The position numbers and the translations under genes are program-made. DNA of 64,000 nt from Yponomeuta sedellus (Eukaryota > Arthropoda > Insecta > Lepidoptera > Yponomeutidae): positions 3,268,591 through 3,332,590 of the forward strand of contig OW203736.1 in assembly GCA_934045075.1 (NCBI GenBank). The letters are read 5' to 3'. How positions within the stretch are numbered: position 1 is the stretch's first letter; the number at the start of each line of letters is the position of its first letter. The notes beneath the pieces were generated by a model. It saw only the letters and a program-made list of their open reading frames with translations, did not search any database and was not told the origin of the DNA. Below, in pieces: positions 4,755-44,656 of the stretch.

Positions 4755-7261
4755 CCTTTATCCCCCGTGGCACTACAGCTTGGCACTACTTGTAGTGCCA
4801 TGGGAAATTTTTATTTCCTTTGACTTTACTGGTAGTGTCAAGGGCAATAACGCATTTCCAGTGACACTACACTGGTTGCAGTTGATTCATGGGAAATATT
4901 ATTTCCTGTGGCACAAGGGGCTATCTTATCTTTGTGTAAAACTTCTTGGAGTTTGAGTACTGGCATTTCAATAGGAATAATATCATATCTGCTATATTAT
5001 TGACATTGACTAGTTAGGCAGATAGTGTCAATGGCGTAAATGACATTTCAATAAATACTATAAATATCGTTAAAATTTTCGACTTTTTACTGATTTCATT
5101 TCATTTAAATGGAAGTTGACGAAGATAGTGAACTTTTCTTCAGACAGCATAAAGGCGGCACAGTAGTTATGCATTGTGATTACCAATATCATAAGCTCAG
5201 AGAATTCAAATGTGGTTCAAGTGTTTGGCGGTGTTCTGCTTATAAGAAAAGTAAATGTCCAGGAACAATAACAATCAAGGTGGGTGCTATTGTGCCTATG
5301 TAATTGTCTAAAAGAATTATTAAGTATAATTATTCAATGTGATTTCAATTATGTATTAATTCTTTGTTATAGGACACAAAAGTTATCAAAAAGTCACAAA
5401 AAGCCCACACTTGTAATCCATTTGTGGGTAGGGCTATAGTTGCAAAAGCAATTGACAATTTGAAGCATGAAGTTACAAAAAGTGACAAACCAATCACGCA
5501 GTTATATGATAAAGCCTGTAATTCATTTGAAAATAAGGGTCTGAATTTTGTAGCCTCGCTACACCCACTTTCAAGTGTGCAATATTGCTTGTATGATATG
5601 CGGAACAAGTCGTTGGGTGTATCTAAAACAGTCTAAAATAATTTCGAACAAGTCCAAGTACCAGTCGATTTCGCAGATTTTGTTTTAGCTGACTACTATC
5701 ACGAAGGCAGTAGAATTTTATTATTTTGTTCACCGGAATGCAGAAAAATCATTGGTGGAATCCGTGAATTTTTTGGAGATGCTACATTCAAAAGTTGTCC
5801 TCCGCCGTTTGCTCAACTATATAGTATTCATGGTGACGTCGGTAGCACGGTACAAACCACAAACGTGATCCCATTAGTTTTTGCTTTGTTACCAAACAAG
5901 AAACAGAAAACTTACCTAACATTATTCAATTTATTAAAAACTGTGCTACCAAATTGGTGCCCTCATAGTTTTCATTGTGATTTTGAGTTGGCAGCTATCA
6001 ATGCATTGACAGAAGTTTTCCCCAACATTCAACAGAAAGGATGCTTCTTTCATTGGTCAAGAGCTGTATGGAAAAAGGCCAAAGCACTAAACTTTACTAA
6101 GAAGAAGGGGCACAAACGTATTGTTGGACTAACATCCGTCCTTCCATTGTTGCCCGACGAAGACATTGTGCGTGGTTGGGAATATGTGAAGGAGGAATGT
6201 GGAGATTTGGGCATGCAAAAGTTTATAAATTACGTGGAATTGAAACTTCAGCAAAATGTTAAGTGTTTATGGTCTCCGTCATAGAACCAACAATGTTATG
6301 GAGGGTTGGCACTCGAAAATTAACAAAAGGGTAACGAAAGGTACGATCACATTACCAAGACTGTTGAAACTTCTGAGGGAGGTGCAGAAAACAAAAATTA
6401 CTAAACGACGACACAATAAAGAAGGTTCAAAACGGTCAAAAACCTCAATCGAAAATGATGATTATATTATGAATATTCTTTTACAATTTATAAACGGCGA
6501 ATTATCAGTCGGAAACACACTGGAGAAATTACGATAGTGCAGTAAAATTTTCATTTCCTAACATTTTGTTTTAATTTTAACATAATAATTCCGCTAAATA
6601 ATCGATATCATAGTAGGACAGCCAATCAATTTGATGATTACTTACCTACTATGCATTTAGGCACTTACCCTCAAATACCTCAAACATATCCCCCCCCCTC
6701 CTCGTCGTACCTCCAGCTCGTGCCACTAGTGGTACGAGAAGGATTTCAAATTTCCTCGTCGTACCACTGATCGAAATCCGAATGGAACGCCATGATATTT
6801 GCTCTACTTACCTACTAATAAAATACAACAAATAAAGGATAATGAAGTAATATGGTATGTTACTGGCAGGCTTACTACCCCTACTTAAAGTTGCAGGTTA
6901 CAGACGTACAGTACAACCTGTAAGCATAAGAGGGATGAAAAACCAATAAATAGGTAATGTTGATTATATTTATTTAAAAACAGTCAAAGTCTAGGAAGAA
7001 ATAATTGATCATGGCAAGACCTTCATTTCGGATGGCAGCTGTCAAACTTAAAAACAGAGACGGCAAATTAAACTTTTAACAAAAAGTGATTTTAGCTTTG
7101 AGGTATTTGGGCGGTGGTAGTGCCACGGGTGATTAAATAGATCACGGTAAAATTTGTTGTATGCGGTGAATGAGCCAATCAGTGTAGTAGTGTTATGGGT
7201 AAGTTAAGTTACCCATGACACTACAAGTTGTGCCAAGCTGTAGTGCCACGGGGGGAAAATG
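4755..7261 (+). mobile_element. MULE-1: Phantom-type Mutator-like element
   Basis: Inverted ends carry CCCCCGTGGCACTACAGC near the left terminus and its complement near the right, extending about 45 bp with mismatches. The 8-bp sequence GAAGTTAT is duplicated at 4747-4754 and 7262-7269. Removing the element and one copy restores a continuous frame in the host pogo-like gene, which fixes the borders. It encodes a FLYWCH plus MULE transposase pseudogene. Bases 6538-7200 are the 3' non-coding part and contain a GTGCCACTAGTGGTAC palindrome (6720-6736). Confidence 0.88.
5109..6537 (+). pseudogene. FLYWCH + MULE transposase (MULE-1)
   Basis: Exon 1 (5109-5279) encodes a FLYWCH zinc finger: GGTVVMHCDYQYHKLRE then WRCSAYKKSKCPGTI. 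A GT-AG intron (5280-5371) follows. The downstream exon holds the MULE core: first Asp in FFGDATFKSC, second in FHCDFELAAINAL, a Cys-His pair in KGCFFHWSRA, and Glu in NNVMEGWHSKIN. It is disabled by a stop at 5634 and a one-base frameshift near 6260. This architecture defines Phantom-type animal Mutator transposases. Apart from two lesions it is full-length. Confidence 0.85.
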
Positions 7262-9367: not shown

Positions 9368-12300
9368 ATGGACACTGAGAGGCAAAAATTCTATAAGAAA
9401 AAAATTAAGATTTTGACATCTGAAAATACAGACCAAAAACGTGAAGCTGTTCCAAGTGGGGGCCCACTTGGTAATTGTAGTGGTAATTCTAAAAAGATTA
9501 AACGTCGTAAAGAAGGATCGTCAAATTCTTCAGATACTGAAGTGACACTTTTAGGAAGCACTTCGTACATAAATCAAAATAAAGATTTAGGTATTTTGAT
9601 GGAGCAGATAAATACTAACAAAAAGACAAAAGAACATGAAGACTCACAGCATTGCCAAAAAGGTCTTGTTGATAAGAATTTCCGAAAACAGGTAAGTACT
9701 TAGGTTTTTTGAATTAGTTGGTTAAAAAACGTTATAAAATGTCATTGCTTATTATTTTTATTATTTATTTCAGACACTACCACAGAATTTCCACACAATT
9801 AAGGAAACGGGTCGAGCAGATCTACAAAGCCAGATTAATAAAGACATACCAATGATTATCAACATGTCAATAAATACTGAAAAAGAAAAAAATGAAGAGA
9901 CCCAAAAAGAATCACAGATTCAGAGAAACGACGATCGAACTCCCACTTATAAAAATATTATAAAAATAGAGATTGAACGAATAGAAAATGAAAGTGAATC
10001 TGAGAATGAATTAAGTATTTTTTATTTAAAATTGACAGTATGATGATTAAAGTTGAGGAAATAATTATTAATTTTTATTTATGTATTTCAGACCTCATCG
10101 AAAATTGATCAAAATTCAGAAATAAGTATGAGAGCGAATTATGGAGACACGCAGGAAAATATTCAACTACCTATAAGAGAGGATGAAAATAATTTAAATG
10201 ATAATATTGACCTGGCAAGAGAAATGGAAAAAAAATCAGATCACCAGTCCCAAACATCTTGATGAAAATCAAAATATAGACCATACAGCACCTACAGATA
10301 AAACAAAAAAGATAAATGTATCAGAAAAGCAATTCTTATCCAGACTCAATTATGCACATGCGGCAGAAAATAACAAAAATAAAGGTCAGAATGAAACTAA
10401 TGACAAGACAATTCAAGGTGACCCATTACAAAAAGACGGACAGGAAATATCATTGAATGAAGAAAACGGGAAAAATATTGAAAGAAGAAACAGAAGAAAG
10501 AACAGTGGACAAAAAAGAAAAAGACGAAAGAGAAAAAGTGTCATTGGATAAAGAAAGAGAGGAAAGATTGCTGGAAGAAGAAATAGAAGAAAGAATAGTG
10601 GACAAAGAAAGAGAGAAAATCTTGATTCAGGATATCTTATTAGAAAGAGAAAGAGAGGAAATATCATCGGATAAAGAAAAAGAAGAAAGATCGTTAGACA
10701 CAGAAAGAGAGGAAATGTCAGAGGCTTAAAAGAGCGAGGTAAGGTCGCCAAATAAAAAAAGAGGAGAAAGATCAGTAGGAAAGAAAAAAGAGAAGAGATC
10801 GGTGACTACCAGAAGCAAGAAAATGACATTGGAAAAAGAAAATAGATTTGAAATGAGTGAACATCTTCAACCCACTATAACGAAAATTATACCAGAATCT
10901 GACATGGACCTATTACGAAAATCTTTAGAAAACGATGATGCTGTTGATGATATAAATATACCAACTTGTCCAGAAGAAGCAGAAACTGAAAATAAAAAAC
11001 AAAGAAGAGTACACATTAATCAAAGTTATGTTGATTTTCTATCAGATGATGAAGATTTTGTATGGGATTCCACTTCTTGGAAGGATACGGAAGGATCTTC
11101 ATCAAGTGAAGATGACCAGCCAAAAAAAAAGAAAAGAAAGAAAAGATTACAAGAGGAGAAAGTTGGAGAAGACGGCTTAAGGAAAAAGAAAATTAACAAA
11201 AGGAACCAGAAAAAAGCTGCTCGGGAAAGAGGTAAAGAATATGTCAAGATGGATCAATTTCAAGTGAAAAACAATTACAGCCAAATCCATGTGCAAATAA
11301 AAACTGTGGACATAAATGCGAAGAGGTAAACGAAATAAAGAGAAGAAACTTATTTGATCATTTTTGGAGTTTGTCTGCAGAACGAAAAAAGGATTGGCTA
11401 GTTGCAATGTCAACTAAAAATGAAGTAACTAGAAAGAGAAATAAAGATTCTTCGTACCGGTCAAACACTTTCCATTACTTTATAAATGATGGGGAAGGGC
11501 GTCGTCAAGTCTGTTTACAGTTTCTTCTAAAGACACATGATATCAGTCAAAGATATGTGTATTACACATTGTCAAACGCCAGCTTTAATTTGGGTTCTGC
11601 AAAAAATGATGCAAGAGGAAAAACCGTTCCCTTTAATAAAACTCCTGATAATGTGAAAAGCTCTGCTGTGAATTTTCTAAAAAGTTTACCGGCTATACCA
11701 TCACATTAGTGCAGAAAAGATAGCACAAGACTATACCTCCCCACCGAATATAAAAACATAAAAATTTGTATCGTATATACAAGGAGGATCGTGCCAGCCA
11801 AGGTGTGGATGTAATTAATGAGAAACTTTTTCGAAACATATTCAATAAAGAATTTAATCTGGGTTTCCACGTCCCTAAGAAAGATAAATGTTTAAAATGC
11901 TTAAAATATGAAGGAAAAGACAAAACAGAACCTGAAATAAAAACTCATTTAGAAGAAAAGAACGCATCTAAACGGAGATTGAAAATTCATCGAGAACTCT
12001 GTAAAAAAAATCCCTCTATTCTATGCACCTCATTTGATTTGCAAAAGGTTCTCAATACCCCACACAGCAATAGCATGCTTTTATTTTATTCTCGCAAATA
12101 TGCTCTATATAATTTGTGCTTTTACGAAAGTGTAACCAGAAATGGTTTCTGTTTCTTATGGGGAGAGACAGAAGGAAAAAGAGGGGGCAATGAAATTGCC
12201 ACAATATTACAGAAATATATTGCGGATGTCGACCGAAGGAAAACTATAAAGAGCTTAATATTATACTCGGACTCGTGCCCCGGCCAAAACAAAAATAAAA

Positions 12301-12884
12301 TTGTCCTTGCAGCAGTTCACAACGCACTATTGATGTCGGAAAATCTCGAGAAAATTCAAATGAATTACTTGTTGCCTGGACATACTGAGATGACAGTGGA
12401 TAGTGTACATTCAACTATTGAAAGTTCTGTACGCAACATGATTGTATGGACTCCATCTCAGTGGATGATGGTGTGCCAACTGGCACGAAAAGAGCCCAAG
12501 CCCTATGAAGTGGAAAGTTTAACTCACGACCAGTTCAAAAATTTTGATGATCTATCAGAAAAATACTTCAAAGGCAACCTTCAAGGAAAGATCAGCAAGA
12601 TACGGGTCGCGACTTTCAAAAAGTCAACACCAAATGTTATGACTGTTAAGTACAGTATGAGTAATGATGCTGCTCAAGAAACTATACCAATTATCTCAAA
12701 ACCAAAGTCACTGAGCCCGAAATATAAATCGTGCTTACCAATCACCATAACAAAATATAACGACCTAAAGAAGTTATGTGACACTAACGCCATACCAAGA
12801 GTATTCCATGCAGAATACTTAAATTTCCCGAAATACAATGGGAGGGATGTACTCATCGATACAGACATCGAAGATGATGAATGA
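9368..12884 (+). pseudogene. DUF7869-like transposase-like gene, decayed copy
   Basis: Multi-exon frame: exon 1 9368-9691, exon 2 9774-10014, exon 3 from 10092, with GT-AG borders. The first ~500 residues are Lys/Glu-rich and low in complexity. Then come a Cys cluster, a Cys-x2-Cys (KDKCLKC) and an RNase H-like core: Asp at 12036 (SFDLQK), Asp at 12270 (SDSCPGQNKNK), Asp at 12399 and Glu at 12420 (within GHTEMTVDSVHSTIE). Stops at 10727 and 11707 and at least three frameshifts (near 10250, 11270, 11750) disable it; the C-terminal 372 codons are open. It aligns by eye along its length with the gene at 40699-43445. No inverted termini were found around it, so a decayed host gene of the same family is an alternative. 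Confidence 0.75.
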
Positions 12885-39826: not shown

Positions 39827-40187
39827 ACTGACTTCTTATGTAAAAGTTTTTATTATTCCGACTCTAATCTGGAAGCGACATGAATGTCAAGCGTGACAGC
39901 GCGTTTAAAAACAAGGATGATTAATATAACTTTAGAATAATATTGCATTATATCATCATTTATATCAGAAGCTAGCAAATACCTACTTTGATGCTTGTCA
40001 AGTGAGACGCTATGCTAGACTTTGCGAGGACAAACCTACAAAGCGTACTTTTAATATTAAAATGTTATTATAATAATTATGATTGGGATACATACCGAAA
40101 TATTCAAGTCATGTTTTAAGTAAATAGATCTATGCTATATTTTTTTTGTTGATTTATAATGATTGTAATAATAAACCTTCGATAATT

Positions 40188-40565
40188 GAAGACGTGAGTG
40201 GATGAAGGTGATATGTCGTATTTTCGGTTTTCGGTGTTTTTTTGTGTGGATGAAGGTGATATGTATAATTGAATTACTACAAACCTTAATAACGTCAATA
40301 TAAAGCTTATTTTCGTAAATAAAATTTTGAAAAAGGTGTTATGTTTAGTTTATTTTAAAAGTTACAGATGATGAAAGAGGTATGTACACATAACACCCTT
40401 TCCCAAGTAAACAAAATAAAAACTTTACTTTTTGTGCGTTGAAGAAGGTGATATGTACGAACATAACACCTTCTTCCACTGCGTTTACTATGTTCGAATA
40501 AAGCGACCCCTATTTTCCGTGAATGAAGGTGTTAAGTCGCAAACATAACACCTTCATTCACTCCA
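40188..40565. repeat. Subterminal array of GAAGGTGWTATGT motifs and palindromes
   Basis: Motifs begin near 40204, 40252, 40331, 40378, 40445 and 40524. The last three are paired with inverted copies (CATAACACCTTC) to form palindromes of about 30-40 bp. Single related motifs lie near the right end (43616-43628 and within the terminus). Probable transposase binding sites. Confidence 0.75.
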
Positions 40566-40698
40566 GAGGTTCAAATGTTTTGATTGCATTCGGTCATTGC
40601 AGTTTCGCGCGCTTTCTGTTGTCGATTCGTGTTTGTTGGATACTGTGTAAAATATTGTTTAAATACATAATAATTGTAATTTTTAAAGTGATAATAAT

Positions 40699-43445
40699 AT
40701 GGCAGGAGCCAAATCAAGAGCAAAATTGTTGGTGGACGCTGCTTTAAATGACTGTGTTAACGAAATAGCTCAAAACAACGATGTTTACAATAATCATAAC
40801 CTCAAAAATATTGTAGGTTAGATCTTTTCTTATTCTTGATTTGTTTGCATTGTTTGAATCACAGTATCTACACTATCATGGACTTGTCTGCTTAACTGGA
40901 GGTTAAAATATGCCACACTTCATTGGTTACTTCTTAATGTTTTACTTCTTAAATGGCATACCTACGTAAAAGGTGATGGGGCTACGCTGACCGCTATGAT
41001 CAGCTTTGATATTTGGTTTTTTTTAGTGTTATTTCGCGTAATACTTGTTTTGTTTTGTACTTTTGGTTGAAAAAGGTGTCAAAGAAGGATGTGATAGGAT
41101 AAGGTTAATAAAAGAAAAACATTGGATGGCAGGAGGAAAAACCGACTAAGTCAATATTTAAATTTTTTGGGTTCCGACTTGTACCTCACCGGTGTTTACT
41201 AACTTTAATTTCTTTTTATTTACTTTTTGATTGCATGCCTTCTTCTATGCTTATGGCTTTGTTTTTTGTAGGTAATCTGGACCCTGCGTGTGATCTTGCA
41301 GATGCATGCATCAAAAGTTATGAAATCGCTGAACCTTCCACTAGCGGTCAAGGCACAAATTATATCGGCAGTCTTGCGAATGTTCCTGTCTCTGTAGCTG
41401 ATGAAATTTCAGATGTTATAGAGAATTCCCTAGAAGAAGGTATAGATTATTTTGGACTTACTTCGCGAAACAAAAAGTCATACACAGTCCTGGGGGATGT
41501 ATCTCCATTTCAGAATAGAAATGAAGACTTTTCTTCCGGTAGTGATGACATTTACATTCCTGAAAGCCCCGATAGCACTAGCTCTAGTGGCGTTGATGAG
41601 CATGAACCTGACAATGAATATGCTGACCGGCAGGAAAACCAAATTATTCTCTCCGCTAGTGAACAGCATGCAAATGAAGATTTGGAGGAAGATACTCGTA
41701 ATATGCCAAAAAAGCGCAAGGTATTTCCACCAAAAGAAAATAAATCCAAAAAACGGCCGAGGAATGAACAATCTTGGAAGAAAAATTCTGCAGCTACAGC
41801 TAGAGCAAAAGGAGAGGAATATGTTTCTTACAAAGGAGAGATAGTTCCGGAAAAAAAGATTAAGGAAGGGATTTTGTGCCACGAGAAGTGCAGGCTTAAA
41901 TGCTCAGAAAAATTTTCCATGGAAGATCGGCAGTCTATTTTAAACGGCTATTATTCCCTGGATATCAATAGTAAGAATGCCCTATTATTCAGCAGCATTG
42001 AGAGTAAGCCTGTAGCGAATAAACGCTGTAATGCTAGAAAGCACAAATCTGCTTCCTACAAGTACTACGTAAAAAAGCATGGAATTACGACAGAAATATG
42101 CAAGTTAGGTTTGTGCGGCATTTATCAGATAGGTCGCAAAAAAATTGATCTTATTATAAAAGGAATCAAGGAAGGACTTGCAGCTCCAAAACCAGATCAG
42201 AGAGGTAGACATCAGAATCGTCCTCACAAAATGGACGATGACGTTGTCAAACGTATTAAAGAACATATTTCAAGTTTTCCTGCTGAACAATCACATTACT
42301 CACGAAACAAAAATATGAACAAACTCTATTTGTCACCGCTAATGAATGTGACCAAGATGCACAGTCTATACCTAGAAATGTGTCATAATGAGGACCTATC
42401 AGACAAATACCTTGTAAAGAAAACTTCATATAACCAAATTTTTGTCACACAATTCAACCTGTCTTTTGGATATCCAAAGAGTGATACTTGCGCTACTTGC
42501 GATGCTGGAGACTCCAATGACGAACATAAGTCAAATTATTATGCTGCTGTTGAAGCTATGCAAGTTGACCGAAAAAAACCAACCCGAGATGGAGATGTTG
42601 TGTACATTACGATGGATTTACAACAAACCATGCCGTTACCAAAACTAACAACTTCAAAAGCGTTCTACTTGCGTCAACTGTGGTTTTACAACCTGGGTAT
42701 TCATGTTTGTGATGGAAGCAAAGAAAAAGCCGTATGTTGCACCTGGACTGAAGATGTTGCAGATCGTGGAAGTGCCGAAGTCGCGAGCGCACTTCTAAGA
42801 TTTGTGGAAGTAGATCCAAGTTGCCAAAATAAAGATCACCTATTGATTTGGTCAGATTCATGTGCCGGCCAAAACAAAAATTTCACGATGATTACACTCT
42901 ATCAATATCTTATCCTTAAAGGATATTTCAAAGTAATCGATCACAAGTTTCCTGAAGTTGGCCATTCTTATTTAGATTCGGATCGTGATTTTGGCAGAAT
43001 AGAAAAAGTCCTAAGAAAGCATGATACAGTTTATGTTCCTGACCAATACCGTGACATCATTTGCAAAGCTTCTCGTAATAATAAAGTGATGGATATGACC
43101 GAACATTTCAGACAAATTGGTGAGCTACAAGAGAATCTCAATTTGATAAATAGGAAAAAAGATGTAAGCAATGGAAAAATTCGTTTTAGGGATGGTATCA
43201 AATGGATTCGAGTTGAGGAGTATGGATCTTATCTATACAAAGAATCGTACGACGAAATGACACCGTTTATAAAGGTGGACATAATAAAAAAGAAATCGAA
43301 GGTGTCCGCAAATTTAGAAATTCCACGTAAGACCGGTAAGTATGGTACTGTTTCAGTAGAAAAGAAACAGAATCTCCAAGACCAACTAAAGTACGTGAAG
43401 CCAGAATATCGCTATTTTTATGAGTCAATTTTAAGCCAAGAATAG
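40699..43445 (+). CDS. Putative transposase with DUF7869-like catalytic core, intact
   Basis: Exon 1 40699-40816 (MAGAKSRAKLLVDAALNDC…) and exon 2 41272-43445 join in phase at a GT-AG intron: 763 codons. Layout: acidic/Ser-rich N-terminus; basic nuclear-localisation-like stretch near residue 185; Cys cluster (ILCHEKCRLKCSEKF); GIYQIGRKKIDLIIKG helix; Cys-x2-Cys (DTCATCDAGD); then the core with Asp at 42615 (ITMDLQQT), Asp at 42855 (WSDSCAGQNKN), and His, Asp (42981) and Glu (43002) in GHSYLDSDRDFGRIE. The Asp-Asp spacings (80 and 42 residues) nearly equal those of the decayed homologue at 9.4-12.9 kb (78 and 43). It is the sole gene between the inverted termini, so I infer it is the transposase; DUF7869 itself has no assigned activity that I know of. 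Confidence 0.82.
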
Positions 43446-43819
43446 TATTTTTTTATATGTAAGATGTTGCACACTTCTGATTACTGCTAATAGCTTAATT
43501 TTTTGAAGAGGCTGGTTCTGTTTATTAAAAAACATAACAATGTCTATCAACATTCGTACTTAGCACCTAATTTTATAAAGCCGCAAGGAAAAATAAGCTT
43601 AAGTTACTTCATGGAAGAAGGAGTTATGTTCAGTTTTTTTTAAATATAATATTTAATAATATCGCAAGAGTTTTATTACCAACCTACCCTCAATATTTAA
43701 GATCATTCACACTACTTTGCATTCAAATTTAAGGCATAACTAATCATTTAAGCGACTTACAAAAGAAAATTGTAGCAAAAATTTAACTTCAATTTACTCA
43801 AAATCAAAAAAAAATTACT
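43446..43819. other. 3' untranslated region of the DUF7869-type transposon
   Basis: AT-rich, with AATAAG/ATTAAA-like signals and one GGAGTTATGT motif near 43619. No other gene. Confidence 0.5.
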
Positions 43820-44656
43820 TATCACCTTCATCCACTCACGTCTTCAATTGCAAGGTAATATTTTCTTTTAAAATCCTTGACACAGGTTACTCGAGGTCAG
43901 ACACAGTATCTATTATCTCTCACTCTGTTTATATACCCATCTCTCGAAAATTCGATAACGTCCATTGTACTAGACAAGAGTAAGCAGTGTGACTCGTTGG
44001 GAATAAAAAAATCCCAACGAGTAACAGTGTGACTGGTTGGGAATAAATTATTCCCAACGAGTCACACCCCTGTCGAGGGTGTGACTCATTGGGAATTTTT
44101 ACATAAAAAATTCCCAACCAGTCACACTGTTACTCGTTGGGGTGTGACTCGTTGAGAACAAAGGAGCATTTGCACAGGCGTTTTATTTTTTCCTAAATAA
44201 GGTTTATGCGAGCTTTTTATCATCGTAAAAATAATGTTTTCTCTAGGTAGCAAAAAGGTAGTAAATACTGATATCAATGACATCGTTAACACTTAACTAA
44301 CATGACATGAAAATCCAAGTAGCCAGCCAACCAGACGTCAGAATGGCTGGCCACTTTATTCTTTTGATAATTTCGATACCGTAAGAGCCAGTCCACACGG
44401 CGCGTTGCGTTGCGTCGTCGCAGCGCTGTCCTTGCGTTGTTTTACATACAAATAACCAAGGTGTTCACACGGCGCGTTGCGTCGTCGCAACGCACACATG
44501 ACGGACAGCAGCCCCCGAGACGAAGCGAGAGAGGGTGTACTCGTGCGACGTCGGAGCGCCAGCGCTCAGTTGCTTGTGCGTTGACAGAGAGGATACACGG
44601 AAGCTCATTTCGTTTTACGTTTACGTTTTTGTATTTAGTTTTATTTGCAGGGTAAA

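Follow-up and report, generated by a model that had tools for sequence, protein, structure and literature searches.

The 3658-bp element at positions 40188–43845 of the window, the window being the whole 64,000-nucleotide stretch of Yponomeuta sedellus DNA that was analysed, is in our judgement a complete cut-and-paste DNA transposon, and we hold with considerable confidence that the one gene it encodes, which carries the Pfam domain DUF7869, is its transposase. The element is presumably autonomous, and DUF7869 is very probably a transposase more generally. The gene product looks like an RNase H-fold transposase, in which DUF7869 would correspond to a predicted C-terminal, RNase H-like core with three Asp residues (D-D-D). 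The left terminus of the element (GAAGACGTGAGTGGATGAAGGTGATA) is matched at the right end by its exact reverse complement (26/26 positions), and the gene between them consists of 763 codons plus a stop, uninterrupted once a splice inferred from the sequence is made. The exon 1 product, SRAKLLVDAALN, is similar to the start of a Scirpophaga homologue (P0003; SRAKRLVEAALN), and the sole Pfam match of the 763-amino-acid (aa) protein is DUF7869 (PF25273), at 45.9 bits against a curated cut-off of 26.

The genome searched comprises 657.5 Mb in 57 contigs, and the copy counts given here are lower bounds. At least three full-length copies are present, namely the window copy on contig C16 and copies on C18 and C4 that differ from it by one base and two bases, respectively. 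Their flanks are unrelated, yet each has AATT at both sides, and on C23 a copy with part of its sequence deleted is bordered by AAAT at both sides, so that a 4-bp duplication is found in all four coding copies for which both ends were read (AATT three times, AAAT once). Being self-complementary, the AATT of the window might, taken by itself, belong to the inverted repeat; AAAT reads differently on the opposite strand, so that its presence on both sides of the C23 copy identifies the 4 bp as a direct duplication and defines the ends of the element. The occurrence of three near-identical copies at unrelated sites shows that the element has moved recently. Fragments lie on C16 at about 2.178–2.197 Mb, and derivatives of 137 bp with both termini are found on C1 and C19, their common flanks leading us to count them as one insertion. 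A genome scan for AWWT followed by the terminus, with up to three mismatches, gave 12 places against none for a reversed control, which together with the three full-length copies argues against chance.

In an AlphaFold model of the protein (predicted local distance difference test score, pLDDT, 87), the core is RNase H-like and aligns to Mos1 and to integrases; a fold predicted from the single sequence (pLDDT 33.5) was discarded. Conservation was counted over 164 relatives, using for each position the rows that have a residue there. The first Asp is retained in 154/155 rows, the second in 141/147 and the third in 132/135, while a nearby Glu is kept in 129/136 and lost in the relatives P0046 and L030. 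From about model residue 178, a pair of conserved His is followed by a pair of conserved Cys, which leads us to infer a His-His-Cys-Cys-like metal site, and the N-terminal part appears to be cysteine-rich and helix-turn-helix-like. A Foldseek search of viral structures gave two matches with E≤0.001, one unnamed and the other a putative transposase of Tetraselmis virus 1. These results agree in large part with an earlier, sequence-only reading of this DNA, which had described perfect 26-bp inverted termini with a 4-bp direct flank and a single spliced, uninterrupted gene, had proposed an RNase H-type D-D-D/E core of which the model now gives a predicted counterpart, and had placed three Asp codons exactly where the near-invariant residues lie. 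The genome search for the same termini that it had suggested yielded the C18 and C4 copies and, with reading frames at three outlying termini judged by eye, no consistently different transposase.

DUF7869 is not confined to this family. The profile exceeds its cut-off at no fewer than 149 places in the genome, fragments included (150 of 239 candidates scored), and gave no match in 14 control genomes. We compared two copies each from seven further DUF7869 families, picked by hand among the multi-copy families, and both ends were found in four of the seven, with inverted termini and 4-bp duplications. These are F1 (6218 bp; terminal inverted repeat, TIR, CGCTACCTTGGGG; ACAT/ACAT in one copy), F2 (4157 bp; TIR CGAYTCATCCG; ATAC/ATAC and GTAT/GTAT), F5 (3205 bp; TIR GAGRGRTATAAAATC; AATT/AATT in both copies) and F10 (4709 bp; TIR CGCACCTCCTCTAG; ATAT/ATAT in both copies), so that the 4-bp flanks match in seven of the eight copies. 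As AATT and ATAT are self-complementary, the flanks of F5 and F10 might be terminal bases, a doubt from which F1 and F2 are free. The long frames of these four families, and that of L067, all match DUF7869. That the TIRs vary between families while the type of protein and the duplication length stay constant is what would be expected if DUF7869 is the transposase, and the suggestion of the sequence-only reading that a transposase role gives DUF7869 a function is thus very probably right, as judged from the long frames of the four other TIR families and the modelled fold.

Our current working hypothesis is that the transposase binds the 26-bp termini together with subterminal repeats, that metal-ion chemistry at the three Asp residues would then excise the element, that the excised element would be inserted where an AT-rich target such as AATT or AAAT has been cut with a 4-bp stagger, and that repair of this cut would leave the 4-bp duplication. 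The candidate subterminal repeats are sites of GATGAAGGTGWTAWGT, 11 of which occur in the whole element, one of them in coding sequence; 200 mononucleotide shuffles averaged 0.155 sites and never had more than 1. The first site of the left-hand cluster is part of the terminus. By analogy with the typical role of such repeats, they are likely to be transposase-binding sites. If the hypothesis holds, a Pfam domain of unknown function, present at so many places in one genome, would gain a likely function, and uncharacterized DUF7869 entries from several insects and a sea cucumber could be relabelled in gene catalogues. An intact copy with near-identical sisters would also be a good start for the biochemistry of this type of transposase.

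Judged by published descriptions of features, the window element is most likely of Sola2 type, in which case DUF7869 would be the catalytic part of Sola2-type transposases. The literature gives Sola elements a DDD transposase, a 4-bp target-site duplication, a length mostly of 2–9 kb and TIRs of 11–1124 bp (PMC10741241). In Sola2 elements of social amoebae the TIRs measure 12, 13 or 21 bp and the 4-bp duplications are AT-rich, with AWWT reported for one species and ATAT, AAAT and ATTT for the other (PMC3627910), and Sola-2 has been annotated in a crambid moth (PMC12205365). The length and 26-bp TIR of the window element fall within the ranges given for Sola, its family has duplications of the AWWT type, as have F5 and F10, and the predicted fold and residue conservation point to a DDD-type transposase with an RNase H-like core, although the third acid may be Glu. 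No activity test of Sola2 turned up in the passages seen, no search having been aimed at one.

A number of observations weigh against the interpretation of the element as a Sola2-type transposon with a DUF7869 transposase. The second F1 copy has non-matching flanks (ATAT/TATT), no TIR was found at the edges of the shared sequence in F4 (L061/L062) or in the L046/L047 family, and in L067/L068 one end only was reached, giving no complete pair. Foldseek found no match in the PDB at E≤0.001; its best matches there (NurA, TnsB, P element, Hermes, RNase H, Argonaute and Mos1) are suggestive only, and the VIA structural alignment is a second look at the same list. The third acid could be either the third Asp or the Glu that follows it (Table 1), so that conservation and model predict a D-D-D or possibly a D-D-E core. 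The placement in Sola2 follows described features rather than a comparison of proteins, and the duplications of F1 (ACAT) and F2 (ATAC and GTAT) lie outside the strict AWWT pattern. A dictyostelid or moss match would link the family with organisms known from the literature as hosts of Sola2 or Sola; no such names are among the protein matches listed, most of which are unnamed, so that this absence says little.

It is mainly because of the ACAT and GTAT duplications that we retain the alternative, in our view doubtful, that DUF7869 elements constitute a superfamily of their own which shares the same chemistry with Sola but whose transposase lineage is unnamed in catalogues. Consistent with this, neither the window protein nor any of the relatives scanned is matched by a known Pfam transposase family, and no mention of DUF7869 or PF25273 was found in the literature searched, where its link to a transposase seems to be unprinted; it may be listed under a different name in repeat databases. 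In a fuller form, which also seems to us improbable, DUF7869 would define a eukaryotic transposase superfamily of its own, very abundant, so far unrecognized in the literature and with a D-79-D-41-D spacing, an integrase-like HHCC module and lineage-specific 4-bp targets (AATT, ATAT, ACAT, GTAT), the window copy being intact and recently active. A domain this frequent in one genome would, we suppose, be hard for repeat curators to overlook, and the core, the AT-rich AWWT duplication, the size and the termini all fit Sola2 or Sola as published. The sequence-only reading, which does not name Sola2, had presented the element as a candidate new superfamily, and of that claim the cut-and-paste transposase is upheld by fold, Asp conservation and the four further families, while the novelty finds no support.

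We consider it very improbable that the gene is carried along in a non-autonomous element which a different transposase mobilizes. Nothing bears directly in favour of this, and what there is comes from the terminus scan, in which nine of the 12 places fall in known copies and the other three are single ends. One of these (C16:1816705) adjoins a divergent DUF7869 fragment, on the inner side of a degraded one (C16:8440547) mariner-like frames occur within about 1 kb, and the third (C20:18152774) has unassigned frames, the frames at all three having been judged by eye with no profile scan; on that basis no other transposase was seen to go consistently with the termini. The DUF7869 gene is, moreover, the only gene of the element, its product has a predicted transposase fold, and four other families with different TIRs likewise enclose such a gene. 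That the window gene is a host gene domesticated from a transposase, with repeats flanking it by chance, can practically be dismissed, as the three near-identical full-length copies with termini and duplications refute it for this copy, even if some DUF7869 genes may be solitary. One such case may be L030 (4223–5803) on C20, a divergent 526-aa DUF7869 frame with the three Asp kept and the Glu lost, whose coding part has no other match among the 40 candidates scored out of 5283; it would be a dead copy or else a candidate for domestication.

Table 1. Features of the window element (window coordinates)
Feature	Position	Strand	Basis
Left target-site duplication, AATT	40184..40187	.	AAAT/AAAT at the C23 copy indicates a direct duplication
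Left TIR, 26 bp, perfect	40188..40213	+	Sequence
Motif cluster, 8 sites of GATGAAGGTGWTAWGT (≤3 mismatches, both orientations), putative transposase-binding sites	40201..40558	.	Excess of sites in the whole element over shuffles
Exon 1, putative transposase gene	40699..40816	+	Predicted splice
GT-AG intron	40817..41271	+	Predicted from sequence
Exon 2 including stop; DUF7869 match at residues 557–668 of the 763-aa protein	41272..43445	+	
Codon of putative first catalytic Asp	42615..42617	+	Conservation; strand 300–307 of model
Codon of putative second catalytic Asp	42855..42857	+	Conservation; directly after strand 380–385 of model
Codon of putative third catalytic Asp	42981..42983	+	Conservation; near start of helix 426–439 of model
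Codon of Glu, alternative third acid	43002..43004	+	Conservation
Right TIR, 26 bp, perfect	43820..43845	-	Sequence
Right target-site duplication, AATT	43846..43849	.	As for left duplication

Among the protein-search matches listed, most of which are without a name, the closest named protein is from Euphydryas editha (P0004; 93% match over 56% of the query), and those with names belong to insects and one sea cucumber, as uncharacterized or unnamed proteins. Sequence searches of the PDB with the window protein gave no meaningful match, and scans of IMG/VR and GTDB contigs, with one or two short peptide patterns per scan, confirmed no relative. Comparison with a relative on C16 over 91 codons gave a non-synonymous divergence (dN) of 0.22, with no usable synonymous value (dS, returned as -1). 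Two relatives, P0103 and P0107, also carry an OTU cysteine protease domain, and P0149 a YqaJ nuclease domain. The F1 family (L055:462–3782) encodes a frame of 1107 aa that contains tandem repeats about 90 bp in size, and five of its copies are near-identical in a comparison of 3426 bp. The sequence-only reading does not mention another DUF7869 gene in the window, at about 10730–12884, which belongs to a different family and is broken into three frames of 199, 157 and 376 aa; the last scores 48.9 bits for DUF7869, and no clear TIR was found for this gene. A short way outside the element, at 43985–44162, copies of GTGTGACTCGTTGGGAAT alternate in orientation, making several hairpins possible. The C18 copy (L002; flanks 1393–1469 and 5356–5432) lies between two predicted tRNA-Ser(GGA) genes.

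With regard to other known systems, mariner and other Tc1/mariner elements duplicate TA, and piggyBac and Kolobok have a TTAA target-site duplication; membership of either group was rejected, the duplication here being of 4 bp, AATT or, in the C23 copy, AAAT. Integrases possess an HHCC domain. The window protein resembles retroviral integrases and IstA in its core fold, and several of the alignments begin at about model residue 178, where the conserved His-His and then Cys-Cys are found; these proteins belong, however, to another type of element, and the root-mean-square deviation is about 9–11 when the part around residue 178 is included. The likeness to Mos1 of mariner (PDB 4mda, 3hot) is one of core fold only, with 7–8% identity, and the window protein has an extra Cys/His-rich part. 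To Pfam DUF7869 the protein belongs by the cut-off, and although that name assigns no function, the matched stretch lies within the predicted transposase core.
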